A stretch of DNA of 64,000 nt from Ilex aquifolium (Eukaryota; Streptophyta; Magnoliopsida; Aquifoliales; Aquifoliaceae): positions 8,212,001 through 8,276,000 of the forward strand of contig OX637402.1 in NCBI GenBank assembly GCA_951799425.1, written 5' to 3'. This document shows, in pieces, positions 9,138 to 60,062 of the stretch (positions are counted from its first letter, which is position 1; each line of letters starts with the position of its first letter). The translations under genes and the position numbers were made by a program. The notes beneath the pieces were generated by a model. The model had not been told where the DNA came from and made no database searches. It saw nothing but the letters and a program-made list of their open reading frames with translations.

Positions 9138-9268
9138 CGTTCGAACGTGAATTGACGTTCGAACGTGAATCAACGTTCGAACGAAAGTTCGTTCCAGTAC
9201 TCTTTGTCTGATTGAAAAACAAAAGTACTGGGAGCAAGTGATGTTCGAACGCCAATGACGTTCGAACA
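9138..9268 (+). promoter_or_regulatory. U3 palindrome cluster, CGTTCGAACG type
   Basis: Perfect CGTTCGAACG at 9138, 9156 and 9174, plus near-perfect copies at 9242 and 9259. Between them lies a hairpin block with 'ccagtact' near 9193 and 'agtactgg' near 9224. The cluster ends about 55 bp upstream of the TATA box. The whole cassette recurs at 48399-48689 in an unrelated element. Confidence 0.85.
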
Positions 9269-9321
9269 TGATCAACGAAATAGAGTATCAAAATTACGTC
9301 GGTTGAGATATTTTCTTCCCC

Positions 9322-9329
9322 TATAAATA
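9322..9329 (+). promoter_or_regulatory. TATA box of Tekay LTR promoter
   Basis: TATAAATA in 'cccctataaatacat', the usual plant LTR context. Transcription would start about 30 bp downstream. Confidence 0.75.
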
Positions 9330-9689
9330 CATAAGGGCGCCTCCTTTAGCCTCCATACATCATCTACAACCCTAGAAAGCCTTGAGAAACAAGAAAGAAA
9401 GGGGGAAACACCAGATCAAAGAGGATTTGCACCTTGAAGTGGATCAAAATCTCAAGTTCTTCAAGAACTCTAAGGAAGAAGAAGGTAGGGGTTTTCTTCC
9501 ACTCTTGTTCATTGATGCTAGGCTTATATATATACATGTTTTGATTCTTAATCATATATATTTGTTATGGAATCCTTGTTTCTTGATTGTTCTTGTAAAT
9601 CTTACCATGTTATGATGGAAGTTATAGCTTGATAGCCATAAAACCTTTGTTCTTGACATCCAAACTCTAGTTTTTCAAGAAGTATGGAT

Positions 9690-10115
9690 TTTTCTTCTTG
9701 ATATCCATTTTTTCTTGATTTTCAAAACTTTATATTCATCTATTCTTGATTTCAAGACTTGATATTCATTTGTTCTTGATTTCAAAACTTTATATTCATT
9801 TGTTCTTGATTTCAAGACTTGATATTCATTTGTTCTTGATTTCAAAACTTTATATTCATTTGTTCTTGATTTCAAGACTTGATATCCATTTGTTCTTGAT
9901 TTCAAAACTTTATATTCATTTGTTCTCGATTTCAAGACTTGATATTCATTTGTTCTTGATTTCAAAACTTTATATTCATTTATTCTCGATTTCTAGACTT
10001 GATATTCATTTGTTCTTGATTTCAAAACTTTATATTCATTTATTCTCGATTTCTAGACTTGATATTCATTTGTTCTTGATTTCAAAACTTTATATTCATT
10101 TATTCTTGATTTCAA
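9690..10115 (+). repeat. 60-bp minisatellite in LTR
   Basis: About seven copies of an exact 60-bp period, each built of two related 30-bp halves ('ttcaaaactttatattcatt' and 'ttcaagacttgatattcatt', each followed by 'tgttcttgat'). Open frames through it on both strands are by-products of the 60-nt period, a multiple of three. Confidence 0.95.
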
Positions 10116-11184
10116 AAACTCTAGTGTTTTGGTTGGAACAATAAAATTATATCTTTTGATGATCTCTTGCTCATTTTTTCTTGAGATGTTATATTGAGAA
10201 ATACCCATGGAATTGGGGGTTTTTGAATTACTTGTGATATGAGAAAATGTTTGGTATTGAATCTCTTGTATGGTTTGTTGTGATGGACTTGAATTGCCTT
10301 CGAGAACTGTCGTAGAGTGTTAGAGGTTAGTCTATCCCAGTGGGGGTGAGATGGTTGTCTAACACTTGTAGTGGATTGTTGTTTGTGAGAGCAACCACTA
10401 TTATTCACGTAAGTTCGAGGCTGAGGGATGGTATACCTTTCCTGGGAAGGATTCGTCAATGCCGTGGGAGACGGTATACGCCCTTCCTAAAGTGATTTGT
10501 GTGGTTATGATAGGTGAACGAGGTAGAAACGTAGTGTAGATTCATGGGAAGCAACCAACATACATGAGTGATACGACATATATGAGAATATGAGATGATG
10601 CTATTGAATGCTTAATTGATTTCTTCAACTCTGACATGTTTATTCCTTTCATTTACTTATTGCTATTGCGTTAAATTGAGATCGAATAAATTGTCACTGT
10701 TTTATTTCAAGTTAAATATGATATTTTGAAAAGTGAGACCGAACTATTTTATATGTTTTCCAAACCTTGTTCGAGTTTGGGAGGATGTTGCTACAGAGCT
10801 TAGTGCTCACCCCCTACAAACAATATTTATTCTCAGATTTTGGTTTAGAGGAAGAGCCTGGATTTGATGAGCAGATAGCTTGGGAAGCGCAATTGGATGT
10901 AAGCGTGGATCGCGAGGGGGATATCTAGAGTTGCTATCTTTATGTCCTAGATTAGGAGAGGTATTGTAATACAATGGATGAATGTTATTTTGTTTATTCC
11001 GCTGCAAGATTAAGTCTGATTTTGAGATGTAAATGCCATAGTTTGGCATATTCTTTTGGATGATGTTGTAGATATGATGTATAATGAATGGAATTCTCTT
11101 TATCTATGGATGTTATTAGTTGCTCTCATGATGTAAATGGTTTTAAATAGTAATGCCGTCCAAGGTGAATTTTGGGGCGTTACA

Positions 11185-11189
11185 TAACT
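11185..11189 (+). repeat. Target-site duplication TAACT, right
   Basis: Matches 4748-4752. Confidence 0.85.
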
Positions 11190-11598: not shown

Positions 11599-11609
11599 AG
11601 ATCGTAGCG
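11599..11609. other. Foldback centre (spacer)
   Basis: Eleven unpaired bases, agatcgtagcg, between the two arms. By alignment to the Tekay LTR at 8753 the centre falls within some tens of bases of that LTR's TATA box and transcription start. Confidence 0.75.
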
Positions 11610-22500: not shown

Positions 22501-25500
22501 CAAGCCTCCTCTTCTTGATACAAGATATAACTCCCACTTTAGCTCACTTCAAGAAGAATAATACAATCTCTTTTTCGAAGTTTTTCTCTCAATATAATAA
22601 TCTAACAAAGTACAATCAAGAGAGAAAAAAGAATAAAGATGTTCAAGGAATCTTCTTTTAAAAATCAAGACAACTTATCAAAAAGTTCTCCTCTAGCTCT
22701 TCTTACTCCTATTTATACCTTAGACCCCTTAAACGAGGTCTTGCAATATTTAATTTGACAAGACTAAAAGAGATATCACTTTCGATGATGAAACTTCAAG
22801 AGTTGTTAGAAGTCCAATGGTCGTGTTCGGTCGACCGGTGGCAGGTACTAGTCGACTAGACAATCCTTCGTGTCCAAATGACCCTTTGAGTTGACATCCT
22901 CCAGTGGCTAGGACAAGTCATCTGATGAGAGGATCCAGACGACCGAACAAACCTTTTGTTCTCCCGCAATGCATCCAAGTCTTTCCAAATAACTTGTCCT
23001 GTTGTCCGGTAGATGCCACCAATCAACAGGCATGATCCTCTATTCTTCTGTCCACACTGATGCATCCAAATTTTCATACTAAAGAGTTTGTCCGCTCGTG
23101 CTTTAGACACTTTCGGTTGACCGACATGACCTTCTGTCCATTTTTCATGTTCTCTTTCTTTTCTTTCTTACATCTTTTTCAACCTCTTTCTTCTTTCTCA
23201 AGACATATCACATTTTCAAATTATTCCTACCCACATCTAAAAACTAATACAAGAAATCGATGATTAGATCACATTAGGATATTTGTTATCATCAAAATCA
23301 TACTTAACAAAGCATATGGTCAACAAATGCATGTACTAATACCACATTTATTTGCCTTATACCCAAAAAGGGAGGTCTCTCAATCTAGAGGAAAGGTGGG
23401 AGCTTTATATCCTAAGCACCATGGTTTTGAAAAGCGGCCGTTACGGCGCATAACGCCCGTTACGTAACGGTAACGGAGGTGGGCGATACCGTTACACCCC
23501 GTTATAGCGGTGAGAAGGAAATTCACATCTATAACGGCCGTTACGGAGCTGTAACGGCGTTGTAACGAGTCCGTAACGGCACTGTAACGGGTCCGTAACG
23601 GCGCTGTAACAGGTCCGTAACGACTGATACGGGTCATTTTCTACCCGAAAAACAAATCCCCAGAAGAATTTTTTTTCTCTCCAATATTCTGTAAAAATAT
23701 ACAACAAAATCTTGAAATAAAATACAAAGTACCCATATAGAAGCAGATTTTGAGACATAGAAGAAAGAATCTGCTGGTAGAGGGAGAGATCTGAAACATG
23801 ACCTTTATACACATTTATGGTAGAGATTCATCTGCATAGAAATCATCCAATGGAAAAGAAATGATTTGAAGGAGATAGATCTGGCAAAACCATCCAAGAA
23901 TCAAAAACCCAGTAGAAAGACAAAAACTTCACAGAGAAGACGAATTCGCCATTTACTAGAGAGACCCAGCAAAAAACGAAAAATTGGAAGAGAGAGAAAA
24001 AAATGTCATTTTTAGTGGGTAGAGCAATTTGCCGAGTGTTCCCTTTTTTTGGAAAAGGAGAGGACAAGTGTTCTCCTATAAAAGTTGTTCCCTTTTTTTT
24101 CTTTTCTTTTTTTTTTTTTTTGATGTTTTGAACAAGTCTAAAAGTTGTTTCCTCTTTACAATAAAAGCATTATCCACAAATTTTATTTAATTTTCTACTC
24201 GAACTTAATTGGGTTTATTCCTTACTTTAAGTTAACAATGTCCTATTTTCGTGGAATTGAGTTAAATATTGTCTTTATAATACAATAACATAGCATCATA
24301 ACCCACTAAAAATATTAATTTGTCTAATGTGAAAGTTAAAATGTGTATACCTTTAATTTTGAAGGAGGTGTGAGTCGGAAAAAAAAATTCACGTCTCCAG
24401 TTTCCGTTACTGTTACGTAACGTCCGTTTCACTCCGTGTCCGTTACACCGTTACCGTTACGACAGCCGTTATTCAGAACCATGCTAAGCACCCTATACCC
24501 CCCCTTTTCAAGAGTGGCAAGAGAAAGAATTTGGAGGAGGTAGGCTCTGAATCTGTCTATTAAACCTAGGTTATGAAAAAGAAACCACTAGAAAAGCTTC
24601 TTCTCTATCTGTTAAATTGGTTATTTAGGTTGCTTGTAGTCCACTCTTGTAGTTATGTAGTTCGTCCATAGAACCTATTATCTACCTTATATAGAACCTC
24701 TTTTGTATCTATTGCTTTGATACTCAACACTAACTATTTGTATAACTTTCCCTTTAAAAAACCTCATATAGGCAAACATTATGATGACTCAACTATGAGT
24801 AAGGACTTTAGACCAATCAGTTTAGTCTCACACCTTCGCAACATTTTCACTAAGGTTTTATCATCCAAGGAGTTTTTGTTGGAGATCGACAAATATTAGA
24901 TGTGGTGTTGGTAGCCAATGAAGCGATTCAAGAAAAAATAGGATCTCATTTCTAACATTAAATTCCAAAAAAACATAATATTGTGGAGTTGAATTTTTAT
25001 GATTTTGTGATGGAAAAGAAAGGTTTTGCATTGAGATTGAGGAAATGGATTATAAGGTTTTCAAGATCTATGAATTTTTCGGTGATTGGTAACAAGGTTT
25101 CAAGAGCCTGTTTTAATGCCCATAGAGGATTTAGGCAAGGCAATCCATTATCATTTTTCCCTTTTACATTTATGGTTGATGCTTTGAGTATGTTGGTCGA
25201 TAGGAGTAGTAATAGATTTTTGGTTAATAGATTTTTGGTGAACAGCTTTAGGATTATTGGAAGGAACAGAGTTAAGCTGAGCAGTTTATAATTTGCATGT
25301 GTAAAGGGGACCCCAAAAGCATTTGTCATTTATTTTCAATTGTCCTGTTACGTTGTCATTGTGATATAAGTTGTTTAGATTGGTGGGTTTGGATCGGGTG
25401 ACTCCCGCCTTTGTTACATCTATGTTTATTCAATACTCAGAAGGACTTAGGAGGAGAGATAAAGGTTTGACACTTAAGAATTGCGCTATTATGGCCAATT

Positions 25501-36905: not shown

Positions 36906-37224
36906 CGTTCGAATGCCAATCCACGTTTGAACATCCTTTTGAATTATTTGAAAACCAGACTGCTGAGGTGATGACATATGGCGTGTTGCAGTTATTTTCA
37001 CAAAAGACCAAGAGCTACTTGAGTACAACGTTCGAACGCCAATCAACGTTCGAACGCCATCTTGAATTATTTAAGGACCGGACTTCCAGAGTGATGAGAC
37101 ATGGCTTGCTATCTACTGTGGGTGACAAGAGCCACTTGAGTCCACGTTCAAACTCCATTAATCGTTCGAATGCCCATAACAGAAGACATGATTCAACGTT
37201 CGAACGCCATACAACGTTTGAACG
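36906..37224 (+). promoter_or_regulatory. U3 palindrome cluster, CGTTCGAACG type, in Athila-like LTR
   Basis: Perfect CGTTCGAACG at 37029, 37047 and 37197. One-base variants at 36906, 36924, 37163 and 37215. The same core occurs in the Tekay LTR at 9138 and at the internal promoter at 48399. Confidence 0.85.
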
Positions 37225-38610: not shown

Positions 38611-40368
38611 GTGTATAATTCTTATTTTACGTCTGAGAACGATCCTCACCTTCAAAATTTGCAAGAAGAATCTATTGGTTCTGTAAATCAGTTTGAACCA
38701 TATTCACCTCGATCAGTAGCACACTATTTTGATAATAGCATGGCCAATAATGAGAGACAAGGGGAAGTTCCTAACATTCGAACTCTGCGGGATTACTTGC
38801 ATCCCACACGAAACAATGTCCCCTCTTGTTTTGTGTTTCCTGCAAATGCACCTCTCTTTAATGTAAAGGCGGGGACAGTGCAACTACTACCTTAATTTCA
38901 TAAACTCGAATATGAAAACTCATATCTGCATATAAAAGATTTTGAAGAGATATGTGGAACATTCCAAGACAATTTTGAACTGGCCAAGTTGAAACTTTTT
39001 CCTTTCTCTTTAAAGGATAAAGCTAAATAATGACTAAACTCTTTAAAAGCCTATTCAATACCAAATTGGCATGCATTACAGAATGAGTTCTTCAGAAAGC
39101 TTTTTCCCCTACACCGTACCAATGCACTCAAAAGGCAAATCATGAATTTTTCGGTCAAAGAGGGAAAAACATTTTACCAATGTTGGGAGAGATTCAAGGA
39201 TCTTCTCCAATCCTGCCCACACCATGCTTTTGAAAATTGGACTTTGGTAGGATTTTTCTATAACTCCTTGCCCACTAGACTACGTCAGTTTGTCGAAATA
39301 ATGGCTCAAGGAGAGTTCATGGGAAAGAGTTCAGAGGAGGCATTCAATTTTTTTTACACCATATCTGATAGTTCTCAGATGTGGGACTCAGCCTCTCCTA
39401 CCACTGTTGAAGCCAAACCATCTACTTCCCAAGGGGGTAAGTAGGTTTTGAAAGAAGATGATGACCTGAGAGCGAAAATGACTACCCTGTCTCGAAAGCT
39501 TGAATCTCTAGAGATGAAAAAAGTACATCAAGTTGACGTTGGCCCTACCACAAAAAAATTGTGTGGGATTTGTGCGTTGACAGGACACCCTACTGGGGAG
39601 TGTCCTACCATTCCGGCATTCAAAGAAGTTTTGTTGAAACAAACAAATGCAATTTCCAACTTCAACAAGCCTTATTACAACTCGTATTCTAATACATACA
39701 ATCCAGGGTGGCGGAATCACCCGAACTTCAGTTGGAGGAACACACAACCAACTCCCATGAATCCACAATAAAGTTCACAACCACCACCTCAAGGACTTCC
39801 TACATATCAACCATACCAACCACCAGACAAGAGAAGTCTCGAGGACACACTGAATCAGTTCATGCAAAGCCAAATTAACTATAACACTCATTCCACTCAG
39901 GCTTTCAATGATTTCAAAACCCAGACCACTCAGTCCTTCGAGGATCTCAAAAGCCACATTCAAAAGTTGACCCAATTAATGACCATACATGAGAATGGCA
40001 AGTTTCCTGCACAACCAAAACAACCACAAGGTCAATTTCATGTGGGAAATCCTTCAATCATGCAAACCCCACAAGACCAAGCTCAAGTTGTCACTACACT
40101 GAGAAGTGGCAAGATGATTGACAAAACCATCAGAGACATGTTAATTCCAAAGTCAACCCTTGAGTCAATCCCAGTCAATGAACAAGTATATCATGAACAT
40201 GTGTTTGAAAAAGAGCCTGAACCTGTGCTTGAAAAACAGCCTGGACTTGTGCTTGAAAAACAAATTGAACCAACAAAGGAAAATGATCCTTCTTGTCCTA
40301 TTCCTGCTCCTTTTCCTCAAAGACTCAAAATAGTGCAGAAGTTGAATAACCATCCAGAAATTTACTAG
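38611..40368 (+). pseudogene. Athila-like gag (element A)
   Basis: Fragments in one direction: N-terminal 'LRDYLHPTRNNVPSC' (38611-38895), a bridge with stops, then the gag core 'GKTFYQCWERFKDLLQSCPH' (39142-39444) and a zinc knuckle CGICALTGHPTGEC (C-x2-C-x4-H-x4-C) near 39570. A Gln/Pro-rich tail follows to 40368 ('TTLRSGKMIDK'). Gag packages the RNA into virus-like particles. Stops at 38893, 39442, 39769 and 40366 show loss of function. Confidence 0.85.
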
Positions 40369-43594: not shown

Positions 43595-44083
43595 TGTGAT
43601 CTAAATTATATTATACACCCAAGTATAAGTGATCGAATTATAGTTTTCTCGGTTTTGGAGCTCTCCCTTGGCTCTTGGATGGTCCGCCTTGCTGAAATGA
43701 AGAAGGGGAGGCATATTTATAAGCAAAGGAAGAAGCACGAGGTGGGAGGATAAGTGCAAACCACCAAGGTGGCTGTCCGGACGCCCCCACCACCATCCGG
43801 ACGGTGGTGCCTTGCAGTAGGTACACGTGTTGCATGCTGGAGCTTCCATGTGTCGTGTTCTTGCTGTTCCATGTGTCGCTTTACACTTTGGTCCTTCGCT
43901 GTTTCTAGCTTTGCAAGTTTTCCTCATATTCTCTGGTATTTCTGTATTAAACCCTGAAATTCAAACATAAAGTATTTAAAACTTTAATTTACGCACAATC
44001 CCTAATTCATAATGTTTAATTGTTTTATCTTACAAAGTTGATTACTTAATCATTTTAATTTACATACTAGTTAGGGTTAATCA
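43595..44083 (-). mobile_element. Small LTR-like insertion in pol linker
   Basis: Does not align with Athila pol, which resumes at 44085 ('APKFEDLSSSGTKPL'). Read on minus it starts TGATTAACCC and ends GATCACA, with a TATA box (TTATAAATATG, about 43722-43710) preceded by a near-perfect 22-bp palindrome around CCGG at 43789-43810 and GTCCGGAC at 43775. This is the layout of a short solo LTR. No matching 5-bp duplication was found (CGCAC and GGCAC nearby differ by one base). Confidence 0.5.
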
Positions 44084-45239
44084 GGCACCCAAATTTGAAG
44101 ATCTTTCATCAAGTGGTACAAAACCACTTTCATTAAGTGTCAAGCCACTAAAGTTTAAACTAAAACCTCTCCCATCTGACCTAAAATATGCATTATTAGG
44201 GGAGGACAAGTCATACCCAATGGTAATTTCATCTAAGCTTGCAGCTTTGCAAGAGTCTAAGCTGATTGAAGTCCTTAGATGCCATAAAAGCACCATTGGG
44301 TGGACCATCGCTGATTTGAAAGGTATAAGCCCGTTAATCTGTAATCATGCTATATACCTTGAGGAGGATTCAAAACCCTCTAGTAAAATCTAGCGACGGT
44401 TGAACCCTTACATGAATGAGGTTTTAAGGACTGAAATGCTCAAACTATTGGATACTGGAAAAATCTTTCCCATCTCTGATAGTAAATGGGTTAGCCAAAC
44501 CCAAGTTATGCCCAAAAAATCTGGGGTCACAGTGGTTAAAAATGATGCCAATGAACTGTTACCAACTCGAGTTGTCACAGGATGACGAATGTTCATAGAC
44601 TACCGAAAGCTCAATTTGGTAACTAGGAAAGACCATTTTCCTCTTCCCTTCATTGATCAAGTCTTAGAAAGAATTGTAGGTCATGCATTCTACTGTTTCT
44701 TAGATGGGTATTTTGGGTATAATCAAATTGAGATAGCACTAGATGACCAAGAGAAAACAACATTCACATGCCCCTTTGGCACCTTTGCATTCAAAAGGAT
44801 GTTGTTTGGACTTTGTAACGCCCCTGCAACATTCCAAAGGTGCATGCTGAGTTTATTTAGTGACATGGTGGAGAGATTTTTGGAAGTGTTCATGGATGAT
44901 TTTTCTGTATATAATGATTCGTTTGATTTGTGTCTGACAAATTTGGAGAAAGTGTTGATAAGATGTAAGGAAGTCAATCTAGTGCTCAATTGGGAGAAAT
45001 GTCATTTCATGGTAACACAAGACATTGTCTTGGGTCACATTTTGTCTTCTGAAGGCATGAAAGTTGACAAGACAAAAATAGATCTAATTGGCAATTTGTC
45101 TGCTCCCAAGACTGTTAAAGATGTCCGATCATTTCTAGGACATGCAGGGTTCTATAAGAGATTCATAAAAGACTTTAGTACCATATCTAAACCCATGTGT
45201 CATCTCCTAAGTCAAAATGTATCTTTTTGTGTGGAGTGA
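44084..45239 (+). pseudogene. Athila-like reverse transcriptase
   Basis: Encodes the RT entry ('GWTIADLKGISP', 'PISDSKWVSQTQVMPKKSG'), then 'IDYRKLNLVTRKDHFPLPFIDQ', 'LDGYFGYNQIEIA', 'TCPFGTFAFKRMLFGLCNAP' and the catalytic box F-M-D-D (44892-44903), followed by 'LGHAGFYKRFIKDFS'. Two stops (near 44390 and 44583) break the N-terminal part, but the palm itself is open from 44589 to 45239. Confidence 0.9.
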
Positions 45240-45660: not shown

Positions 45661-47234
45661 TCATCTATCCAGGTTAACATATGAATTTCATGAGGATGAC
45701 CTGCCAATCAATGAAAATTTCCCTGATGAACAGCTGTTCACAGTCATGGAAACACCATGGTACACTGATATCGCTAACTTCCTTACTACTAGTACGTTTC
45801 CTCCTTCCTTTACAATGATGGATAAGAAGAAATTTATGATGGAGGTTCGTAATTTCTTTTGGGATGATCTATATGTGTTTAAGTACTATAAGGATCAAAT
45901 CATAAGGTGTTGCATCCCCGGTCATGAGAGCAGACAGGTAATATCTTTTTATCATTTTGAAACATGTGGTGGCCATTTTTCATCTAAAAAAATCGCTGCG
46001 AAAATCTTGTAGTGTGAATTTTATTGGCTCACACTTTTTTGAAGATGTTCATGCCTTTTGTCTAACATGTGATAGATGCCAATGGTTGGGAAGCATTTCT
46101 AAAAGAAACATGATACCCTTGAACCCAATTCTGATAATTGAAATTTTTGATTGTTGGGGCATCAATTTTATGAGACCATTTCCCCCTTCCTTTGGCTATC
46201 TATATATTTTAGTGGCTGTTGATTATGTTTCCAAATGGATTGAAGTAATTTCATGCCGAAATAGTGATCACCGAACAATGATCAAATTTTTAAAAGAAAA
46301 CATTTTGTCCAGGTTTGAAATTCCTAAATCCAATATAAGTAATGGAGGTGCTAATTTTTGCAATCATCCTTTTTGGAATTTGATGAAAAAGTACTTGATT
46401 TCTCATAAAATTGCAACCCCTTATCATCCACATACTAGTGGACAGGCTGAATTAGTTAATCGAGAGATCAAACTAATTTTAGAGAAAATGGTAAATCCGG
46501 ACCGCAAAGATTGGTTGTTAAGACTAACTGATACACTCTAGGCATATCACACTGCTTTTAAAACAATTTTGGGCATGTCTCCTTATCAATTAGTCTATGG
46601 CAAGCCCTGTCACCTACCTGTGGAATTGGAACACAGAGTATACTAGGCCATTAAAACAATGAACTTTGACTTGAACAAGGCTGAAATCTCAAGAAAATTT
46701 CAGATTAATGAGTTGGAAGAGTTGAGAAATGAGGCATATGACAATGCTAAAATTGCAAAGGATAGGATGAAAACTTTTCATGATAAAAACATATTGAGAA
46801 AATCCTTTGCCCCTTCACAAAAAGTCCTCTTATTCAATTCAAGGCTCCGCCTGTTTCATGGAAAGTTGAGATCTAGGTGGACTGGGTCTTACATTGTCAA
46901 ACAAGTGTTTGGACATGGAGTAGTGGAAGTGAAAAATCCATCAAATGTCAATATTTTTACTGTCAATGGTCAGCGTTTGAAACCATTTTTTGAAGACTTT
47001 GTTAAAGATGTGGAAACCATTTTTTTAATGAATCCAAAACATTCCGCCGAGATTCGCGCCTACCGATACAAAAAGGGGTCAGGTCAAGAAAAATACATCC
47101 CAATCCGACCCGAAAGGACGCCTTTATTAAGCCTCCAAACCCTAAATCCCCTTTTTCCCATCCACTATTCTTCTTCTTCTTCTTCGTTTTCTTCCCTATT
47201 CTCTACAAATGACCCACTCTCTGCAACTCCATGA
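45661..47234 (+). pseudogene. Athila-like integrase with mutated catalytic residues
   Basis: After 'VADHLSRL' come a degraded HHCC finger (near 45950-46080, frameshifted) and the core. The first catalytic position is Asn ('WGINFMRPF', codon 46164-46166) and the second is also Asn ('SNGGANFC', codon 46341-46343). The glutamate is kept (46449-46451). Stops at about 46540 and 46645 follow. The C-terminal part continues ('RWTGSYIVKQVFGHG') and the frame runs to 47234 with a Ser-rich end. The enzyme would be dead even without the stops. Confidence 0.85.
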
Positions 47235-48398: not shown

Positions 48399-48710
48399 TG
48401 TTCGAACGCTAGTTCACGTTTGAACATTGGCTGCTCATAGTACTTTGGTCTCTGTAGGCAATCAAAAGTACTGGGAGCACCAAACGTTCGAACGTCTGAT
48501 TAACGTTTGAACTAGGACCCAACGTTCGAATGCCATATCCACGTTCGAACGCCAGGAGCTTCCAGTACTTTGGCCTCTGTAGGACATCAAAAGTACTGGG
48601 AGCACCAAACATTCGAACGATAGTGTAACGTTCGAACCATTTGTTAAAAATCCTTCTATACACGTTCGAATGTCAGTAACGTTCGAACGTTGTCTGTTTG
48701 GGTATAAATA
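48399..48710 (+). promoter_or_regulatory. Internal promoter with CGTTCGAACG palindromes
   Basis: Perfect CGTTCGAACG at 48485, 48542 and 48680 and at least seven one- or two-base variants (48399, 48417, 48504, 48523, 48610, 48629, 48663), followed 14 bp later by TATAAATA at 48703-48710. Two copies, 124 bp apart, of a hairpin block 'agtacttt...aaaagtact' + 'gggagcaccaaa' lie at 48438-48475 and 48562-48599. A CT-rich leader and an ORF follow, so this looks like the promoter of the ORF at 48923. The cassette resembles that in the Tekay LTR at 9138-9268. Confidence 0.75.
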
Positions 48711-48922: not shown

Positions 48923-49541
48923 ATGCCTTTAAGGATGAAGATGCCCGCTAGGCGCAAGACGGCCAACCAAGAGCCTAATTTTGTGATGGAAGTGATCGAG
49001 GAATGAGAGGGAAGGCTACCCATAGTCCGAAGGTACGATAGAACCCGATTTCCTAATGCTCTCAAAGTAGATAGGTACAATAATTTTTTTCAAAACCAAC
49101 CTATAGCTTGTGAACGAACAATTGAGTTGATTGATTTTGTAGAGTTGGGGCTTTATGCCAATATGGAGGCGAGGGGTTGGACAATGTACTTGAGGAATGG
49201 TAGAGAGGCGGTGAAGGAGTTGGTGCGGGAGTTTTACTCCAATGCCGAAATTGTCAATGGGGCGATCAAGACTTATATGAGGGGAGCTCACATCAATATC
49301 GATGAAGATTATATTGTGGAGATGAGGGCCGTACCAAGGGTACCGAGGCCGAGCTACCCCCCGAGAAAGAATGTGGGGATGGATGTAGTTGGTGTTGAAT
49401 TAACGGGCTTGGCAACGTTGTCTTGGGGAGGACGGAGATTTTTTAGGCAAGGTGAATTGACAGACAAGTACAAAATGCTAAATTTGATCGCCGTCTCGAA
49501 CCTTACCCCCATCGGACGTAAGAATGAGATATTATCGGAGA
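48923..49541 (+). pseudogene. Plant 'Transposase_32'-like ORF, 5' part
   Basis: From ATG at 48923 the frame reads MPLRMKMPARRKTANQEPN, meets TGA at about 49004, and continues open as 'RFPNALKVDRYNNFFQNQ', 'CERTIELIDFVELGLYANME', 'ARGWTMYL', 'LVREFYSNAEIV' and 'YMRGAHINIDEDYI' to the Tekay insertion. The R-G-W, REFY-N and RG blocks resemble the 'putative plant transposon protein' domain found as an extra ORF in plant retroelements; function unknown. The part after the insertion is at 59142. It lies on the same strand as element A pol and is probably its additional ORF. Confidence 0.65.
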
Positions 49542-49546
49542 TGGCC
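49542..49546 (+). repeat. Target-site duplication TGGCC, left
   Basis: Matches 59142-59146. Confidence 0.9.
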
Positions 49547-51968
49547 TGTAACACCCCGCATTTTTTATTTTATATATGTACATAGATATATAGTAAAAAA
49601 TTGTAGTAAAATGGAGTTATGTGTAGTAATAGTAGGAATAAATATTAGGGAGACAATTGTATTGAGAAGTTTGAGTTTCGAATGTGTGTAAACTTGGAAA
49701 GGGTGAATAGACAAGTTTCTAAAGGTTTTTAGGTCAAAATAATGCTTCCATTGAATCCGGAAGGTTGAACAACCTTGGGAGAGGTAATATGAGGTGTATT
49801 GGAAGTTAGGAAGTATTTTGGAGTTAAAACCCACTTTAGAGTGAAATTGGATAAAAAGTATCTTGGACATCTTCTAGTATTTTGGTCATAACTTTTTATC
49901 CTTATATCCAATTGATCTGAAATTTGGACAGTAGATAGTAGACATCTAGGGCTACAAAAGTGTATCTCATGAAAATTTTCCAATTCGACCTCTAAATGGG
50001 TCAAAACTGCCCTGGAAGTTGAAGCAGAAAAAGGGTACCGGTACCATTTAGTACCGGTACCAAGTACCGGTACTGCGACTCCAGAAAGTTCTGGGTACCG
50101 GTACTGGGTACCGGTACCATCCTTCTGACGCCTCTAAACAGTTAAAAGTCGGGATTTTGTGTTATAAGAACCCATCCCACATCCCATTTGCCCCATTTCT
50201 TCATCTTCCTCTTACCCTAACCCTCCTAGAAACCCTTAGAGAGAAAGAGAGAAAGATAAAACTCAAGATTAAAAGGAAAGACAAAGGGTTCACAAGGTGA
50301 TTCAAGATTCAAACCCTAGGTTTCTTCAAGAGCATAAGGTAGGGGATTTCTTCCTATGTTCTTACATTGAGGCTAGGGCTAAATTATATGTATTCTTTTG
50401 GTTTAAAATCATATGTACTTGCTATTAAATACTTGATTCTTTGTCTCCTTGCATTGATTTCCTTTCTTTTTACATTTTGGTAGTTGGGTAACTATTAAAG
50501 CTATCTTTTTCACTCTCATCCTTATATACATGATAAGAAATACATGACTCTTGTTCCTCTTGAAATAAATGCCATGTTTTGAACATTGTGATGGTTGGGT
50601 AACTCTTAAATTTCTCTTTTTCATCTTCAAACCTTGGTTTTAAAGAGAAATGGACTTTTCCCTCTATTTTTCCTTAGTATTGCTTTCAAAACTTTAGTGT
50701 TTGATATGGTACACCAAAATGTTACTTATGAGGATCTCTTGCTCATTTTCTTCCCTCATATTATGAAACATTATATTAGAATTGTGGAAATTTGGTAATT
50801 CCTTGAAATGTTGATGAATTGAGAATATTTTGGTTTCCTCAATTGTATGGTTGTTGTGAGGGACTTGGATTGCCTTCGAGAGATGCCGTAGAGTGTTAGA
50901 GGTTAGTCTACCCCCGTGGGGGTGAGATGGTTTCCTAGCACTTGTAGTGGGTTGTCATTTGGTAATGAAACCACTATCGTTCACTGGAGTTCGAACAAGG
51001 GATAGTATACTTTTCCTGGGAAGGGACTCGTCACTGCCATTGGGATGGTAGACGCCCTTTCCTAAAATGCTTGTGAATGTGATTGTGATTGGTGGACTAG
51101 GTATAATCGTTGAATAGATTCATGAGAAGCAATCAACATACATGGTACGGGGATGAACCAATATACATGAGAACATGAGATTATTATTATTGTTACGGAA
51201 TGGTTTCCAACAAGTGCTTGTGGAGGTATGGGACTCCACAAGAACCTGTTGGAAATTGTTATGGTGATCATTGTGACTGAGTTTTACGGTTCATTTAAAT
51301 TATTACGAAACCTTTAAACTTGAGATCTATTTAAAAATATCCTGTTTTTCCTTCAAAATGTTATATATGCTATTTGTGAAAATGAGACCAACCGTTTTAT
51401 GTGCTTTTCTAAACCTTGTTTGAGTTTGGGAAGATTTTGCTACAGAGCTTCGTGCTCATCCCCTACACTTAATATTTTTCAGATTTGGCTTCAGAGGAGG
51501 AGCTCGGTGTGAATGAGCCGGGCCTTGGGGAAGCTTCCTTGGAGGGGTACCTAGATCCCGAATGGGACATCTAGGGATATAGCTTATTTTGTTCTAGACT
51601 AGGAGATTTACTTCTGAACAATGTAAAGTCTAGATTCTTTTGAAACTCCACTGCGATATACTCATGTAATTCTTTTGGGGAATGTAATTGCCATATCTGG
51701 CCTATTCTTTTGGGATAATGTTAAGGATAGTATAGATGGTAAATAGAAATTTTATTGTTATTGGATGGTTAAATGGACCCTGTGTGGTCAAGCTAATATA
51801 ATTGCACAGGTTGTGATTTTTGGGTGGAGCTTCCTGTACAAAGGAGACTCTGCCCAAATTTTGTTAAAATTAAGAATGTTATTATTTTATGGATATATAT
51901 TTAGTTGCTCTCATGACATGAATGGTTTCATAGTGTAATGCCGTCCAGGGTGGTATTTGGGCGTTACA
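49547..51968 (+). mobile_element. 5' LTR of complete Tekay element
   Basis: 2422 bp, TGTAACACCCCGC to GGGCGTTACA (one G fewer than the 3' LTR). U3 carries the GGTACC/ACCGGT array, with a TATA-like TTATAAGA at 50162. ORFs within it are duplicated in the other LTR and are not genes. Confidence 0.95.
50034..50119 (+). promoter_or_regulatory. U3 palindrome array, GGTACCGGTACC type (5' LTR)
   Basis: Five blocks built of GGTACC and ACCGGT palindromes ('ggtaccggtacc', 'gtaccggtac'), about 45 bp upstream of the TATA-like box. Same place in the LTR as the TTCGAA cluster of the Tekay element at 9138. Confidence 0.9.
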
Positions 51969-51972
51969 AAGT

Positions 51973-51984: not shown

Positions 51985-52170
51985 CTAGGCTTTAGGTATT
52001 ACATGGGAGTTGTAGGTTATGGATTACCACTAGAGATGTAGGTTTAGAGTGAAGGAAATTGTTTAGTTAAATTTTGTATATGCCTTGTGCTTAAATCAAG
52101 ACATCCTACATATCACTTTAGTTTGTATCTTGCACATCAAGGAAACTAAAATTGTGGATTGATGTGCAGG

Positions 52171-55100
52171 ATGGACGGTACAAGGGGACGAGGACGTGGT
52201 CGTGGCCGTGGGGGTCAAGCAAATCCACCACCACCACCACCTCCGGATGCCATGCAAGGCATTTACCAATGCCTGAGGGAGCTTACCACTTTGGTACAAA
52301 GCCAAAACGGTAACAACAACCACAATGGTGGAGCACATCCTCTTGCTCAAGTACCGGGCAATGGGAACGGGGACAGAAGGATGCTAGCCCTTCGGGAATT
52401 CTTAAGACAACGACCCCCCAACTTCCAAGGGAGCTCCAATCCTTTGGATGCGGATAAATGGATCCGTCGGGTAAGGAAGATTTGTGATGGCATGGGGGTT
52501 GCTGAAGACTTGAGGGTTGGCTTGGCTACCTATTTGCTCGAGGGGGAGGCCGACCATTGGTGGGACTCCGTGAAAAGAAGGAGGAACACCGAGGCACTTA
52601 CTTGGGAGGAATTCGACCAAGTCTTCCAAGACAAGTATTTTCCGGAATCAGTTAGGGACCGGATGAAGACAGACTTTTTGGCTCTACGGCAGGGTAGCAT
52701 GACGGTGGCTGAATACGAGAGGAGGTTTGACGAGCTATCCCGCTATGCCACCGAGTTCATATCCACTGAGGCCATGAGGGCCAAGCGCTTTGAGCAGGGA
52801 TTGAGGCCTGCCATCCGGGAGAAGCTTGTGGCACACAAGATCCGGGAATATGGAGATCTTGTGGATAGAGCAGCCCTAGTGGAGAGAGACACAGAGGATA
52901 ATCTGAGGCGACAGAGCTTTGCGAGAGGAGGTCCTATACGGACTGGTGCTATCGGCAGTGGAGTGCAGAGAGCGGCACCTTACCGGCGCCCAGATCAGGC
53001 AGGGGGACAGAGACCCCAGATAGCTCGAGGAGTAGGAGGTGTTCCGGGGAGGACAGCCACAGACCCTCGTCAGTGCTTCGCATGTGGAGGTGTGGGACAC
53101 TTCAGACACAATTGCCCATCGCTTCCACCGAGGGGCAACCAAGCGACCGGACAAGTGGCTGCAAACAAGCCACTACAGCAGCAGAGGCCGTTGGGAGCTC
53201 TAGCCCCAGGCGGTGCCACACAGGGGAGAGTATTTGCTTTGACCCAAGCAGAGGAAGATGCCTCCAATGCCGTTGTGGAAGGTATCGTTCTTCTTTACAA
53301 TTCTTGGGCCCGAATTTTATTCGATCCCGGGGCAACTCATTCTTTTATAAGTACTGTGTATGCTACGAAATTGGGGTTGGGTTTCGAGAAACTAGAACAT
53401 GCATTGAATGTTGACTTGCCTACGGGAGAACAATTGGGTACTAGTCGGGTTTGCAAGGGTTGCGTGCTTCGGATTGGGGAGCACGAATTGATTGTGGATT
53501 TGGTTGCTCTAAATATGATGGGGTATGACGTTATATTCGGGATGGACTTGTTGTCCGCTTTCCGGGCAGTAATGGATTGTTTCCGCAAGCGGATTACATT
53601 TCAGTTACCAGGAGGGGTAGTTTTCAGTTTTATCAATGACCGGAGTTCTTCCCATCCATTTCCAACTACGGGTAGCAAATTCTTGAAAGCTAAGGCGGGG
53701 AGCCATTTGAGCTTCTTAGCTAGCTTAATGGGAGATGATCGGGATAACTCCCATGCGGACGTGGTGTTGATAGTATCGGATTTTCCGGATATCTTCCCTG
53801 ACGAATTACCTGGGTTACCTCCACAAAGAGAGATTGAATTCAAGATCGATCTCTATCCGGGAACCGAACCCATATCTATTGCTCCCTACCGGATGGCACC
53901 TTTGGAGTTGAAGGAGCTAAGGAAGCAATTAGATCATTTGTTGGCGATTGGGTTTATCCGTCTCAGCACTTCACCCTGGGGAGCCCCGGTCCTCTTTGTG
54001 AAGAAAACGGATGAAACTCTACGGTTGTGCACGGATTATCGGAGGTTGAATAGGGTTACCGTGAAGAATAAGTATCCGTTGCCGAGAATTGATGACTTAT
54101 TTGATCAGTTGAAGGGGTCGAAGTATTACTCCAAGATTGATCTTCGCACGGGGTATCATCAGCTGCGGATTAAGGAGGAGGATATTCCTAAGACTGCTTT
54201 CCGTACCCGGTATGGTCACTTCGAGTATACGGTGATGCCGTTCGGATTGACGAATGCCCCGGCAGCCTTCATGGATTTGATGCACAGAGTCTTTCGGCCT
54301 TACCTCGACCGATTTGTCATTGTGTTTATTGATGACATATTGGTTTACTCACAGACTCGGGAGGAACATGCTCGTCATCTCTCTATGGTGCTACAAACAT
54401 TGAGAGAACATAAGTTATATGCGAAGATGAGCAAGTGTGAGTTCTGGATGAAGGAAGTGAAGTTCCTTGGTCATGTTGTGTCCGAGCAAGGAGTAGCGGT
54501 GGATCCCGCAAAGATTGAGGTCGTGATGAAATGGGAACCCCCGAAGAACGTAACGGAAGTCCGGAGTTTCTTGGGGTTAGCCGGCTATTATCGTAGGTTT
54601 GTGGAAGGGTTCTCCAAGCTTGCGATGCCGATGACTCGCCTCACAAAGAAGGGGGAAAATTTTTTATGGACTCAAGCGTGTAAACTAGCTTTTCGCACCT
54701 TGAAGGAGAAGTTGACGACGGCACCTATCCTCATTATTCCGAGTAGTGGGGAAGGCTACGATGTCTACACCGATGCTTCACTACGAGGCTTGGGATGCGT
54801 TCTGATGCAAGGAGGGAAGGTAGTAGCTTATGGCTCGAGACAACTCAAGGTACATGAGCAGAATTATCCCACACACGACTTGGAGCTAGCTGCGGTGGTG
54901 TTTGCTCTTAAGTTGTGGAGATGTTATTTATACGGGGAGAAATTTCAAGTGTTCTCGGACCATAAAAGCCTCAAGTATATCTTCACACAGAAAGACTTGA
55001 ATCTCCGGCAGAGAAGGTGGATTGAGTACTTGGAAGATTATGAGTTTACGCTCAACTACCATCCGGGGAAGGCCAATGTAGTTGCCGACGCTCTTAGCAG

Positions 55101-56664
55101 GAAGTCTCGGGGTGAAATCAATTCTCTTGCGGTAAATCGATGGAAAATGATTGATGCATTGGAAGAATACGAGCTATGGGTGGATGGACCGGAATATCAA
55201 CCATATCTATTCAACCTTGTAGCTCAACCGACGCTTCTGCAACGGGTGGTGGAGTTGCAATGCCTGGATTCGGAACTCGATTTGATTAGAGCCCGATTGG
55301 AGAATGGAGAAACGATGGAAGGATGGTCTTGGAAGAATGGAGAGTTGAGATATGGGGAGAAGCTTTGTGTCCCCAATGATTCGTCCCTAAATGAGGAAAT
55401 ACTTGGAGAGTGTCATCGCTCCAAGTTTGCTATCCACCCCGGTAGCACAAAGATGTATAGGGACATGAAGCGTCAATACTGGTGGAGAGGAATGAAGCGA
55501 GATGTGGCCAAGTATGTGGCAAAATGTGCGGTGTGCCAACAGGTGAAGATTGAGCACCAAAGGCCAGGGGGAGTCCTACAGTCTTTGCCTATCCCAGAGT
55601 GGAAGTGGGATCACATCACCATGGACTTCGTATCTGGTTTTCCACGGACTTCACGAGGGCATAATGCCGTATGGGTCATTGTTGATAGACTCACCAAGTC
55701 TGCTCATTTCTTGGGTATGAAGACCACGGATACATTAGAGACGTTGAGTCAGCTGTATATCCGTGAGATTGTGCGATTACATGGAGTTCCACTTTCTATT
55801 GTGTCGGATCGTGATTCTCGGTTTGTTGCGAGATTCTGGCAGAGTCTACAACAAGCGATGGGGACGGAGTTACACTTCAGTACGGCTTTTCATCCCCAAA
55901 CGGATGGCCAATCCGAGAGGGTGATACAGATTGTGGAGGATATGTTACGCGCTTGCGCGTTAGACTTCAAGGGGAGTTGGAGCGATCACTTACCGTTGGT
56001 GGAGTTTTCTTACAACAACAGCTATCAGGAAAGTATTGCGATGGCCCCGTATGAAGCATTATATGGAAGACCATGCCGATCACCGACGTGTTGGTTAGAA
56101 GCAGGAGAGAGTAGTTTGTTGGGACCGGACATTGTTCGAGAAACTACGAAGAAGATTCAACTCATCCGAGAGAGGCTACAGACGGCGCAAAGTAGACAGA
56201 AGAGCTATGCGGACCATAGACGAAGACCCTTAGAATTCAAGGTGGGAGACTACGTATTTCTCAAGGTGTCACCCAAGAAAGGCGTGTTTCGATTCGGCAA
56301 GAAGGGAAAGTTAGCGCCAAGATATACCGGGCCATTTGAAGTGATCAAAGTCGTGGGTAAAGCGGCATATCAGTTGCGACTACCCGCTCAGTTGTCGGGG
56401 GTGCATGACGTATTTCACGTGTCCATGTTGAGGAAGTGTCAGTCGGATGCAACACATGTCGTAGACTTGGAAGATATTGAAGTTGAAGATGGAGCAACAT
56501 ATGAAGAGCAACCGGTGAGAATTCTCGATACAAAGGAGAAAGAGCTTCGCAACAAAGTCATCCAACTGGTGAAGGTTCTGTGGCAGCACCATGGAGTGGA
56601 GGAAGCTACATGGGAACCAGAGCAAGAAATGCGGGAGAAGTACCCATTTTTATTCGCTACTTGA
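52171..56664 (+). CDS. Tekay Gag-Pol polyprotein, intact
   Basis: One open frame of about 1497 codons. ATG at 52171 is preferred (A at -3, G at +4) over the weaker ATG at 52162. Order: RGRGRG-rich N-terminus; Gag core about 95-195; CCHC knuckle [14 protein letters not shown] 302-315; aspartic protease with D385 in 'DPGATHSF'; RT from about 572, catalytic F-I-D-D 719-722; RNase H with D868 in 'YTDAS'; integrase HHCC (H1082, H1089, C1119, C1122) and core D1152, D1213, E1249 with 35 residues between the last two; C-terminal chromodomain about 1444-1490 ('[12 protein letters not shown]'). The product makes particles, copies RNA into DNA and inserts it, with the chromodomain thought to guide it to heterochromatin. 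Gag and Pol share one frame, so their ratio must be set by processing. No defect seen. Confidence 0.97.
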
Positions 56665-56692
56665 GGTAAGTTTCGAGGACGAAACTTTCTTT

Positions 56693-56705
56693 AAGGGGGG
56701 TGGAT
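56693..56705 (+). other. Polypurine tract
   Basis: 'aaggggggtggat' adjoining the 3' LTR; primes plus-strand synthesis. Confidence 0.9.
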
Positions 56706-59141
56706 TGTAACACCCCGCATTTTTTATTTTATATATGTACATAGATATATAGTAAACAATTGTAGTAAAATGGAGTTATGTGTAGTAATAGTAGGAATAA
56801 ATATTAGGGAGACAATTGTATTGAGAAGTTTGAGTTTCGAAGGTGTGTAAACTTGGAAAGGGTGAATAGACAAGTTTCTAAAGGTTTTTAGGTCAAAATA
56901 ATGCTTCCATTGAATCCGGAAGGTCGAACAACCTTGGGAGAGGTAATATGAGGTGTATTGGAAGTTAGGAAGTATTTTGGAGTTAAAACCCACTTTAGAG
57001 TGAAATTGGATAAAAAGTATCTTGGACACCTTCTAGTATTTTGGTCATAACTTTTTATCCTTATATCCAATTGATCTGAAATTTGGACAGTAGATAGTAG
57101 ACATCTAGGGCTACAAAAGTGTATCTCATGAAAATTTTCCAATTCGACCTCTAAATGGGTCAAAACTGCCCTGGAAGTTGAAGCAGAAAAAGGGTACCGG
57201 TACCCGGTACCGGTACCATTTAGTACCGGTACCAAGTACCGGTACTGCGACTCCAGAAAGTTCTGGGTACCGGTACTGGGTACCGGTACCATCCTTCTGA
57301 CGCCTCTAAACAGTTAAAAGTCGGGATTTTGTGTTATAAGAACCCATCCCACATCCCATTTGCCCCATTTCTTCATCTTCCTCTTACCCTAACCCTCCTA
57401 GAAACCCTTAGAGAGAAAGAGAGAAAGATAAAACTCAAGATTAAAAGGAAAGACAAAGGGTTCACAAGGTGATTCAAGATTCAAACCCTAGGTTTCTTCA
57501 AGAGCATAAGGTAGGGGATTTCTTCCTATGTTCTTACATTGAGGCTAGGGCTAAATTATATGTATTCTTTTGGTTTAAAATCATATGTACTTGCTATTAA
57601 ATACTTGATTCTTTGTCTCCTTGCATTGATTTCCTTTCTTTTTACATTTTGGTAGTTGGGTAACTATTAAAGCTATCTTTTTCACTCTCATCCTTATATA
57701 CATGATAAGAAATACATGACTCTTGTTCCTCTTGAAATAAATGCCATGTTTTGAACATTGTGATGGTTGGGTAACTCTTAAATTTCTCTTTTTCATCTTC
57801 AAACCTTGGTTTTAAAGAGAAATGGACTTTTCCCTCTATTTTTCCTTAGTATTGCTTTCAAAACTTTAGTGTTTGATATGGTACACCAAAATGTTACTTA
57901 TGAGGATCTCTTGCTCATTTTCTTCCCTCATATTATGAAACATTATATTAGAATTGTGGAAATTTGGTAATTCCTTGAAATGTTGATGAATTGAGAATAT
58001 TTTGGTTTCCTCAATTGTATGGTTGTTGTGAGGGACTTGGATTGCCTTCGAGAGATGCCGTAGAGTGTTAGAGGTTAGTCTACCCCCGTGGGGGTGAGAT
58101 GGTTTCCTAGCACTTGTAGTGGGTTGTCATTTGGTAATGAAACCACTATCGTTCACTGGAGTTCGAACAAGGGATAGTATACTTTTCCTGGGAAGGGACT
58201 CGTCACTGCCATTGGGATGGTAGACGCCCTTTCCTAAAATGCTTGTGAATGTGATTGTGATTGGTGGACTAGGTATAATCGTTGAATAGATTCATGAGAA
58301 GCAATCAACATACATGGTACGGGGATGAACCAATATACATGAGAACATGAGATTATTATTATTGTTACGGAATGGTTTCCAACAAGTGCTTGTGGAGGTA
58401 TGGGACTCCACAAGAACCTGTTGGAAATTGTTATGGTGATCATTGTGACTGAGTTTTACGGTTCATTTAAATTATTACGAAACCTTTAAACTTGAGATCT
58501 ATTTAAAAATATCCTGTTTTTCCTTCAAAATGTTATATATGCTATTTGTGAAAATGAGACCAACCGTTTTATGTGCTTTTCTAAACCTTGTTTGAGTTTG
58601 GGAAGATTTTGCTACAGAGCTTCGTGCTCATCCCCTACACTTAATATTTTTCAGATTTGGCTTCAGAGGAGGAGCTCGGTGTGAATGAGCCGGGCCTTGG
58701 GGAAGCTTCCTTGGAGGGGTACCTAGATCCCGAATGGGACATCTAGGGATATAGCTTATTTTGTTCTAGACTAGGAGATTTACTTCTGAACAATGTAAAG
58801 TCTAGATTCTTTTGAAACTCCACTGCGATATACTCATGTAATTCTTTTGGGGAATGTAATTGCCATATCTGGCCTATTCTTTTGGGATAATGTTAAGGAT
58901 AGTATAGATGGTAAATAGAAATTTTATTGTTATTGGATGGTTAAATGGACCCTGTGTGGTCAAGCTAATATAATTGCACAGGTTGTGATTTTTGGGTGGA
59001 GCTTCCTGTACAAAGGAGACTCTGCCCAAATTTTGTTAAAATTAAGAATGTTATTATTTTATGGATATATATTTAGTTGCTCTCATGACATGAATGGTTT
59101 CATAGTGTAATGCCGTCCAGGGTGGTATTTGGGGCGTTACA
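56706..59141 (+). mobile_element. 3' LTR of complete Tekay element
   Basis: 2436 bp, TGTAACACCCCGC to GGGGCGTTACA, nearly identical to the 5' LTR. Confidence 0.95.
57193..57290 (+). promoter_or_regulatory. U3 palindrome array, GGTACCGGTACC type (3' LTR)
   Basis: As in the 5' LTR but with one more 13-bp unit (cggtaccggtacc). Confidence 0.9.
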
Positions 59142-59146
59142 TGGCC
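59142..59146 (+). repeat. Target-site duplication TGGCC, right
   Basis: Matches 49542-49546. Confidence 0.9.
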
Positions 59147-59566
59147 CGATTGCTATAAGCAATAGGTAGGGGCCAAAGCATAGATGATGAAGGGGTGTGA
59201 TGTGAAGAGGAATTCACTCCCCTTCAGTACACTTGTGATGGAGATGTGCCTGGACTGGGGAGTGCAAGTCAGGCCACATATGAGAGTGCAAAAGTAGATG
59301 GGACCGTGGAACAAGGCGTCCTTCTGAAGGAGCCAAGGTTAAAGCGGCAGCCCAGCGATGAGACAGGATGTGCCACCGGCCCAAGGCACCGATGAAGTGC
59401 ATGATGCTTTGGACGCCGAGCAGCAGAGAGAGGCCGAGGAGGCAGAGGAGGCAGAGGCACAGACACAGACCCAGACCGAGGTAGGTACCAGGACCAGCAC
59501 CAGCATCCGACGGTCATTACGGGACATCATGCTTGGCATCGAGGCCAAGCAAGATGAGATTGATTA
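59142..59566 (+). pseudogene. 'Transposase_32'-like ORF, 3' part
   Basis: Resumes after the Tekay element with 'ARLL', a TAA stop, then 'AIGRGQSID'. Further on another frame (59358-59566) is rich in Glu/Ala/Gln with an EEAEEAEAQTQTQT stretch and ends 'SLRDIMLGIEAKQDEID', probably a coiled coil. Frame changes show decay. The last bases TGATTAG overlap the proposed start of the next LTR. Confidence 0.5.
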
Positions 59567-59809
59567 GCACATAACAATGACATGTATGGTGTGCTAATGT
59601 GCTTTTGTTTCACCTTTTTTTTGTCAATAAATGGGAGTGTTTTGGTTTTGATTGTGGCTTGATGGAATTTTGGGTGAATGCATGTAAAATGATGTAAATG
59701 ACATGATTTAAACCCCCATGGTGTTGTATGAGGCTAATAGAGTGTATGGGGTAGCTTTAAGGATGGTTTGGAAGGGAAAGAAATCCAATTTTTGCTCACA
59801 GTCTGAAAA

Positions 59810-60062
59810 CCTTCCGGAAGGTGTATGTCGGCCTTCCGGAAGGTTTTGCTAAAAACCCTGGATGCCTTGTTCACAGCTAATACCTTCCGGAAGGTTTTGT
59901 CCACTGGAATGAACCTTCCGGAAGATTTTAGCTACTGGAATGAACCTTCCGGAAGATTTTTGCTACTGATGTCGACCTTCCGGAAGTTCTTGCATTTGAT
60001 TATTTTCATTTAACTGTTCTTTCAGCGACCTTCCGGTAGGTGTATGTCGACCTTCCGGAAGG
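59810..60062 (+). promoter_or_regulatory. U3 palindrome cluster, CCTTCCGGAAGG type (8 copies)
   Basis: Perfect copies at 59810, 59832, 59883 and 60051. One-base variants at 59914, 59945, 59976 and 60029. Confidence 0.9.

Follow-up and report, generated by a model that had tools for sequence, protein, structure and literature searches.

Different CG-dyad palindrome clusters, candidate promoter modules, occupy the same slot in homologous long terminal repeats of Ty3-type elements of Ilex aquifolium

We analysed a window of 64,000 nt (G000:C12:8212001-8276000) of the Ilex aquifolium genome (800 Mb, 103 contigs) that contains nested Ty3-type elements, and studied the clusters of short palindromes with a CG dyad found in their long terminal repeats (LTRs). 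An intact Tekay-like element at 49547-59141 is inserted into the extra open reading frame (ORF) of an Athila-type element, whose LTR, gag, reverse transcriptase (RT), integrase and internal cluster are spread across ∼36.7-49.5 kb. A more diverged second Tekay-like LTR is located at ∼8.75-11.18 kb, and a further LTR family, here called C, has copies at ∼6.5-8.4 kb and 59.7-61.4 kb. R designates a chromovirus-like family; L numbers designate further loci, of which L030-L043 were picked from motif hits. The lineage names Tekay and Athila come from the initial annotation, recall and Pfam, with no tree behind them. The palindrome clusters of the window are as follows.

6788-6823 and 7046-7079, + strand: two slots of a C-family LTR, each with TTCCGGAA-type copies; a TATA box is lacking within 300 bp
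9138..9268, + strand: TTCGAA-type cluster (CGTTCGAACG, five copies with at most two mismatches) in the more diverged Tekay-like LTR; TATAAATA at 9322
22828..23123, − strand: weak GTCGAC palindrome pair and one CGGTTGACCG; TATAAATA on the minus strand at 22710-22717
36906..37224, + strand: TTCGAA-type cluster (eight copies with at most two mismatches) in the Athila-type LTR; TATAAATA at 37341
43775..43810, − strand: weak TCCGGA pair; TATAAATA on the minus strand at 43714-43721
48399..48689, + strand: TTCGAA-type cluster (10 copies with at most two mismatches) at a putative internal promoter of the Athila-type element; TATAAATA at 48703
50034-50119, + strand: GTACCGGTAC cluster in the 5′ LTR of the intact Tekay-like element; TATAAGA 44 bp downstream
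57193-57290, + strand: GTACCGGTAC cluster in the 3′ LTR of the same element
59740..60070, + strand: TTCCGGAA-type cassette (cluster 59810-60062) in a C-family LTR, common to the otherwise different LTR of L026

The initial annotation had listed these nine sites under one design, attributed to at least six promoters and to unrelated families, in which several palindromes with a CpG dyad precede a TATA box. Clusters were confirmed at 6789-7079 (three exact TTCCGGAA and one near copy, in slots ∼220 bp apart), 9138-9268, 36906-37224, 48399-48689, 50034-50119, 57193-57290 and 59810-60062. Two sites are weak: 22828-23123 has two exact palindromes plus a one-mismatch copy of the first, and 43775-43810 has one exact 8-mer plus a near copy. 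One dyad type does recur in several families; the number of families was overstated, since a single element accounts for both 50034 and 57193, its two LTRs, and a single family for 6789 and 59810. The LTR at 40716-43156, described as free of such a cluster, indeed has just three CG-dyad palindromes of at least 6 bp, each different.

Perfect CG-dyad palindromes of at least 10 bp number 43 in the window, against 6.4 (SD 2.4, maximum 13) in 100 dinucleotide shuffles, a ∼7-fold excess; at a length of at least 12 bp the counts are 21 and 1.7. Palindromes of at least 10 bp with other dyads stay inside the shuffled range: AT, 34 versus 29.6 (maximum 45); TA, 35 versus 24.6 (maximum 36, thus near the top); GC, 13 versus 11.1 (maximum 21). 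GC-dyad palindromes of at least 12 bp (seven, shuffle maximum eight) are likewise near the top of their range.

To avoid picking motifs by eye, we used a motif-blind scan for any 8-mer found at least four times within 500 bp, in the window and in 25 stretches of 10 kb whose positions were picked without seeing the sequence, though not by a random generator. It returned 591 word clusters; 310 with dissimilar flanks (satellite-like ones being dropped) were merged into 68 loci. A palindromic word was found at 13 loci, and 12 of these words (TACCGGTA, TTCCGGAA, GTTCGAAC and ACACGTGT) have a CG dyad; the remaining one is TTCTAGAA. Since six of the 13 loci form three LTR pairs, each from a single element (L023, L026 and 50034/57193), there are about ten independent cases. 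No palindrome was seen at the scan threshold at the other 55 loci, including the 36906 cluster, which was lost because its copies have diverged.

Two scan loci deserve a separate mention. At 8882-9104 of L019, ACACGTGT / GACACGTGTC form a G-box-like cluster with several copies ∼43 bp apart, a fourth CG-dyad type. The local TTCTAGAA repeats at 407-806 of L017 are the sole non-CG palindromic cluster of the scan, and we take TTCTAGAA to be a perfect heat-shock-element pair.

Exact copies of three palindromes were counted genome-wide: 32,359 of CGTTCGAACG (reversed control 278), 51,910 of GTACCGGTAC (907) and 23,874 of CTTCCGGAAG (931). A first-order Markov model built from a 250-kb sample predicts 84, 131 and 436 copies, respectively, and a second-order model 61, 145 and 316; the counts are thus 55-396 times the first-order expectation. 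The sample itself contains 0, 32 and 18 copies, and therefore does not mirror the genome-wide counts. As a side observation, very dense CTTCCGGAAG clusters, many of them paired ∼7.6 kb apart, fill G000:C1 from 60 to 192 kb, and all CTTCCGGAAG places among the matches listed (the first ∼100) are inside this region.

The position of the TTCGAA type relative to the TATA box is one-sided. CGTTCGAACG followed by TATAAATA after 40-70 bp occurs at 1,525 places in the genome, while the mirrored arrangement, CGTTCGAACG followed by TATTTATA with the TATA box on the wrong side, occurs at 48; neither figure counts independent events, as families are repeated and one TATA box may be counted with two palindromes. 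Among the matches listed (the first ∼100) the gap is mostly 52-53 bp. For the nine named sites, a TATA-type box was found within 300 bp downstream in seven and upstream in none; the two sites lacking one, 6789 and 59810, are of the TTCCGGAA family. We also compiled 19 oriented clusters; the set has one LTR copy each of L023 and L026, and contains none of 57193, L033, the hits in L001-L004, the two weak sites and the later additions L036-L043. A TATA-type box lies within 160 bp downstream in 10 of the 19 and on the control side in two (background 0.126 per 160 bp). By family the downstream counts are 5/5 for the Athila-type, 3/5 for the Tekay-like, 2/4 for R and 0/5 for C; the proposed placement of a TATA box behind the cluster therefore stands for the TTCGAA type and for most named sites, and fails in the C family.

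Direct comparison of homologous LTRs demonstrated that, in three families, different palindromes occupy one slot between alignable flanks. In the Tekay-like family, the sequences that lead to the cluster (8878-9132 and 49781-50034) are 78% alike, and those behind it (9482-9584 and 50336-50441) are 75% alike. The clusters in between are not homologous: the slot holds TTCGAA palindromes in the 9138 LTR and GTACCGGTAC in the 50034 LTR, which L013 and L036 resemble. The TATA region falls within the unaligned stretch, which means that the difference between the two LTRs there goes beyond their palindromes. A search with the Tekay-like flanks gave 2,704 candidates; the best 40 of the 2,704 were scored and, being all 98-100% alike, were too alike for a survey of the slot.

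In the R family the slot holds TTCCGGAA in L026 and GTACCGGTAC in L023, L034, L035, L039 and L040. The flanks of L035 and L026 are 86.6% alike on the left (ending ∼60 bp before the cluster) and 83.5% on the right (starting ∼190 bp behind it); in L034, the 83 bp that immediately follow the cluster are 77% alike to L026. The right edge of this swap is approximate, because L026, L034 and L035, when aligned together, match loosely past the cluster.

The cleanest case is the C family, where L037 holds GTACCGGTAC at the position at which 7046-7079 holds TTCCGGAA; with exact palindromes masked, the neighbouring sequences abut the slot and are 83.8% and 73.6% alike. The LTR at 6789 has the same palindrome type in both of its slots. 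Its distal slot (6788-6823), with a second TTCCGGAA pair that has no counterpart in L037, is a gain or loss and an exception to the replacement pattern. Independent insertion of small elements was considered as the cause of the clusters and rejected on the alignments, which present replacement between conserved flanks and not an insert at an empty site; no search aimed at terminal repeats or target duplications of the cassettes was made. Separately, L007 (6768-6863) is a possible further mosaic: in this Tekay-like LTR the sequence downstream of the cluster is of Tekay type, and the upstream flank is 76% alike to LTR L034 of the R family.

Replacement had been proposed to have happened independently many times. 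Replacement is what the alignments reveal; independence is not supported, as turnover is at least in part an exchange of existing cassettes between lineages. Two cases point to this. The C-family LTR at 59542-61392 and the portion of the R-family LTR covered by L026:1-2562 have a single region of significant homology, 59740-60070 with L026:1864-2333 (89% and 82%), which defines a 331-bp cassette common to two otherwise different LTRs. Also, the 9138 cassette and the Athila-type internal cluster (48399 and L030) share AAAAGTACTGGGAGC, a 15-base non-palindromic co-motif located between the palindromes. We observed, in addition, that AGTACT and AAAAGTACTGGGAGC make up an inverted-repeat co-motif among the TTCGAA palindromes (9192-9236, 48440-48480 and 48560-48605; L030 309 and 427), a second dyad element with a loop.

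The coding and structural features of the two nested elements, all on the + strand, are listed here.

39034..39441: gag fragment, Athila-type element
44586..45239: RT fragment, Athila-type element
45942..46538: integrase fragment, Athila-type element
49007..49546: extra-ORF fragment behind the internal cluster, with a Transposase_32 (PF20167) match
49547..51968: 5′ LTR of the intact Tekay-like element, with ends TGTAAC...GTTACA
52150..56664: gag-pol ORF of 1504 aa (gag, protease, RT, RNase H, integrase)
56706..59141: 3′ LTR of the same element, 99.3% alike to the 5′ LTR
both sides of 49547-59141: 5-bp target duplication TGGCC

The Athila-type element is represented by its gag, RT, integrase and Transposase_32 fragments; the last match (E-value 1.3e-9, 38.6 bits) is below the gathering cut-off of 45. 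The extra-ORF fragment has a stop codon just before it (49004), and it is cut by the Tekay-like insertion. In the gag-pol ORF of the Tekay-like element the Chromo match is below the cut-off (E-value 0.0005), as it is in the R-family pol of L026 (E-value 0.018). We take a chromodomain after the integrase, together with TGTAAC...GTTACA ends, as marks of the Tekay (chromovirus) lineage. In the carriers compared for pol (Tekay-like, R and Athila-type), RVT_1 precedes integrase, which is the Ty3 order. Behind the C-family LTR end at 61392 stands TGGCGCCGTTGCCGGG, presumably an Athila/Tat-type primer site. A comparison of the gag-pol with viral contigs gave no match.

Extra palindrome copies precede an ORF at 48399-48689, L030 and L038. 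The Athila-type LTR around 36906..37224 is homologous to L031, L032 and L033. L030 matches 48156-49113 (72%) and sits ∼3.6 kb before L031, which matches the 36906 LTR; L030 and L031 did not match each other among the matches listed, though they share palindrome and TATA box. These positions and matches place the Athila-type palindrome before a TATA box both in the LTR and upstream of the ORF, and we infer that the internal cluster has a sense promoter of its own. The start of the L030 ORF (73 aa) had no Pfam match. By position and orientation, L043 and L042 would be the LTRs of one C-family element on C1, with L038 between them. Palindromes and a ∼22-base spacer with one change are shared by these LTRs and L038, whose matches, palindromes included, cover 43 bp at 95% with L042 and 108 bp at 84% with L043.

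Repeat spacings and substitutions were counted in hand-chosen clusters, some of them near-identical LTR pairs. Preferred spacings are 13/16/31, 17-19/34/68 and 22/31. Of the 14 single changes in CGTTCGAACG, 12 are CpG transitions. Those in GTACCGGTAC are C>T at the dyad (6/14) and G>A at the outer base (6/14), and in CTTCCGGAAG one T>A change accounts for seven of eight, probably largely one inherited repeat variant. Such substitutions fit decay of methylated CpG in the TTCGAA clusters, less so in the other two types.

Taken on sequence evidence, the arrays are probably sites for dimeric DNA-binding proteins that have been exchanged between elements as promoter cassettes. The palindromes would be dyad-symmetric sites of sequence-specific dimeric proteins, most likely host transcription factors, and the arrays in the unique 3′ (U3) region of Ty3-type LTRs would act as enhancers or upstream promoter modules; in Athila-type elements an array would also serve the likely internal promoter of the extra ORF. 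Site types CGTTCGAACG, GTACCGGTAC and CCTTCCGGAAGG coexist in the genome, with a G-box-like GACACGTGTC cluster seen once. Array length may be altered by local duplication, and array identity by exchange of whole cassettes, probably through template switching during reverse transcription of co-packaged RNAs or through gene conversion. By such an exchange an element would change its activating factor and keep its body.

Several points weigh against this interpretation. No TATA box lies within 160 bp of the C-family clusters (0/5), half of the R clusters and two of the five Tekay-like ones lack it as well. When exact palindromes were masked, L038 had no match to L042 or L043 at an E-value of 1e-4; the flanks therefore differ, and the sharing between L038 and the LTRs rests on the short spacer. 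Strong predicted RNA structure would fit a hairpin role, to which spacer shuffling leaves a slight lean.

The alternative that survives best, though we judge it unlikely, is a role in RNA, already raised in the initial annotation. U3 is at the 3′ end of the genomic RNA, where palindrome copies could pair with one another; the resulting foldback could serve packaging, 3′ processing or the production of small RNAs, an idea put forward for maize Sireviruses. For these elements PMC10760457 describes clusters of palindromes, located in the cis-regulatory part of the LTR, whose RNA is predicted to be strongly structured. The clusters do fold well: the lowest 110-nt window ranges from −31.9 to −71.1 kcal/mol, 10 of 14 clusters are below −40 kcal/mol (the 1% point of 400 background windows is −40.1), and the best-window z against dinucleotide shuffles is −2.8 to −8.7, somewhat flattered by the choice of the best window. 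With palindromes kept and spacers shuffled, however, the energy stayed within 2 SD in 15 of 18 clusters (mean z −1.2); the three below −2 are 6789 and two clusters that contain the additional AGTACT inverted repeat, 9138 and 48399. No symmetric compensatory change was found in six two-mismatch copies. Hairpin potential is thus strong and mostly a by-product of the palindromes, and hairpins need neither the one-sided TATA placement nor the use of internal clusters.

Somewhat less likely still is a binder encoded by the elements themselves, an activator or a VANC-type anti-silencing factor. The Athila extra ORF, for instance, could supply it: the protein would then act on the LTR and the internal promoter of its own element, and other elements would make use of identical sites. 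The same palindrome at the LTR and at the internal cluster before an ORF, in two element types, is consistent with this, as is the presence of GTACCGGTAC and TTCCGGAA in elements with only gag-pol as long ORFs. PMC5735166 describes dense arrays of the short VANC motif in non-coding regions of VANDAL transposons, quickly altered by tandem repetition. Those are DNA transposons with an element-encoded binder, and the text of that paper never uses the word palindrome. Furthermore, no DNA-binding domain was shown in the extra ORF, no Pfam family matched the L030 ORF start, and the L038 ORF had no clear similarity to the L030 ORF or the window fragment (best E-value 0.23). A bolder version, to which we give little credence, regards the palindromes as addresses to which a small set of factors responds, one or more of them element-encoded: a dimer of the Athila extra-ORF product on TTCGAA would activate the LTR and the internal promoter of its own element, and further Ty3 lineages would switch address through capture of such cassettes and use the factor in trans.

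A neutral by-product, with slippage multiplying short palindromes and transposition of a few successful families spreading them, would suit the preferred spacings and the high element copy number, yet it is improbable and already disfavoured, since it does not lead one to expect slot swaps, one dyad type, a one-sided TATA place or the same type in both 6789 slots.

Dimeric binding sites exchanged as cassettes, the reading that we prefer, have partial parallels in known systems. As described in PMC2829016 (Bousios et al. 2010), LTRs of Sireviruses (Ty1/copia) carry many copies of a family-specific, CpG-rich palindrome shortly upstream of the TATA box, with extra copies of these repeated motif (RM) boxes upstream of the env-like ORF, for which regulation is discussed. 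The motifs have a CGG-CCG core in all elements but Tnd-1 and are called Sirevirus-specific, being absent from classic copia elements. The repeated dyad palindrome in the LTR is found here too; the cores here are TTCGAA, ACCGGT and TTCCGGAA and not CGG-CCG, the Tekay-like, R and Athila-type carriers are Ty3 and not Ty1/copia, and swaps between homologous LTRs are added. Because core and superfamily differ from those of Bousios 2010, our clusters are not Sirevirus RMs but may work alike. The maize Sirevirus LTRs have the same combination of palindrome clusters and low-energy folding, found here in Ty3-type elements. Tnt1, Retrolyc1 and Retrosol, by the available part of PMC1838419, differ mainly in the U3 regulatory region and have a conserved body; they belong to one Ty1/copia superfamily, and a palindrome type across unrelated lineages is not described in that part. 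Separately, CGGTCGACCG at 22828-22837 is identical to the repeated motif of a Vitis Sirevirus (PMC2829016 Table 3), and the site may be a decayed array.

Heat-shock elements were considered as well. TTCCGGAA presumably fits a TTCnnGAA pair, as in ONSEN-type LTRs. TTCGAA lacks the two-base spacer and GTACCGGTAC has no TTCnnGAA unit, so heat-shock elements cannot explain the palindrome set.

A literature search gave no plant factor for these palindrome cores. Of the papers retrieved with five motif strings, none among the matches listed was about plant LTRs, judged by titles, and the open-licence literature among the matches listed held no account of cassette swapping across Ty3 lineages. New in comparison with print would be that palindrome types are exchanged among homologous LTRs, and from one Ty3 lineage to another. 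Should the clusters be promoter modules, three site types would together amount to ∼100,000 copies in this genome (108,143 exact), and the swaps that arose naturally in LTRs otherwise alike would provide ready-made experiments on change of regulation and escape from silencing. A feature described as Sirevirus-specific would extend to Ty3 lineages, and the question of the driving factor would become directly testable.

Some structural details of the window are worth recording. A tandem array of 30/60-bp repeats occupies 9697-10117, a part of the more diverged Tekay-like LTR that follows its promoter cassette. A self-complementary stretch at 11182-12024 (845 bp, 94%) and the inverted pair 3407-4752 and 12017-13364 (96%) amount to a complex nested rearrangement around the same Tekay-like element. 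Two C-family LTR ends, 60304-61392 and 62912-64000, are inverted relative to each other and 100% identical over 1,089 bp, where they are cut by the window end.

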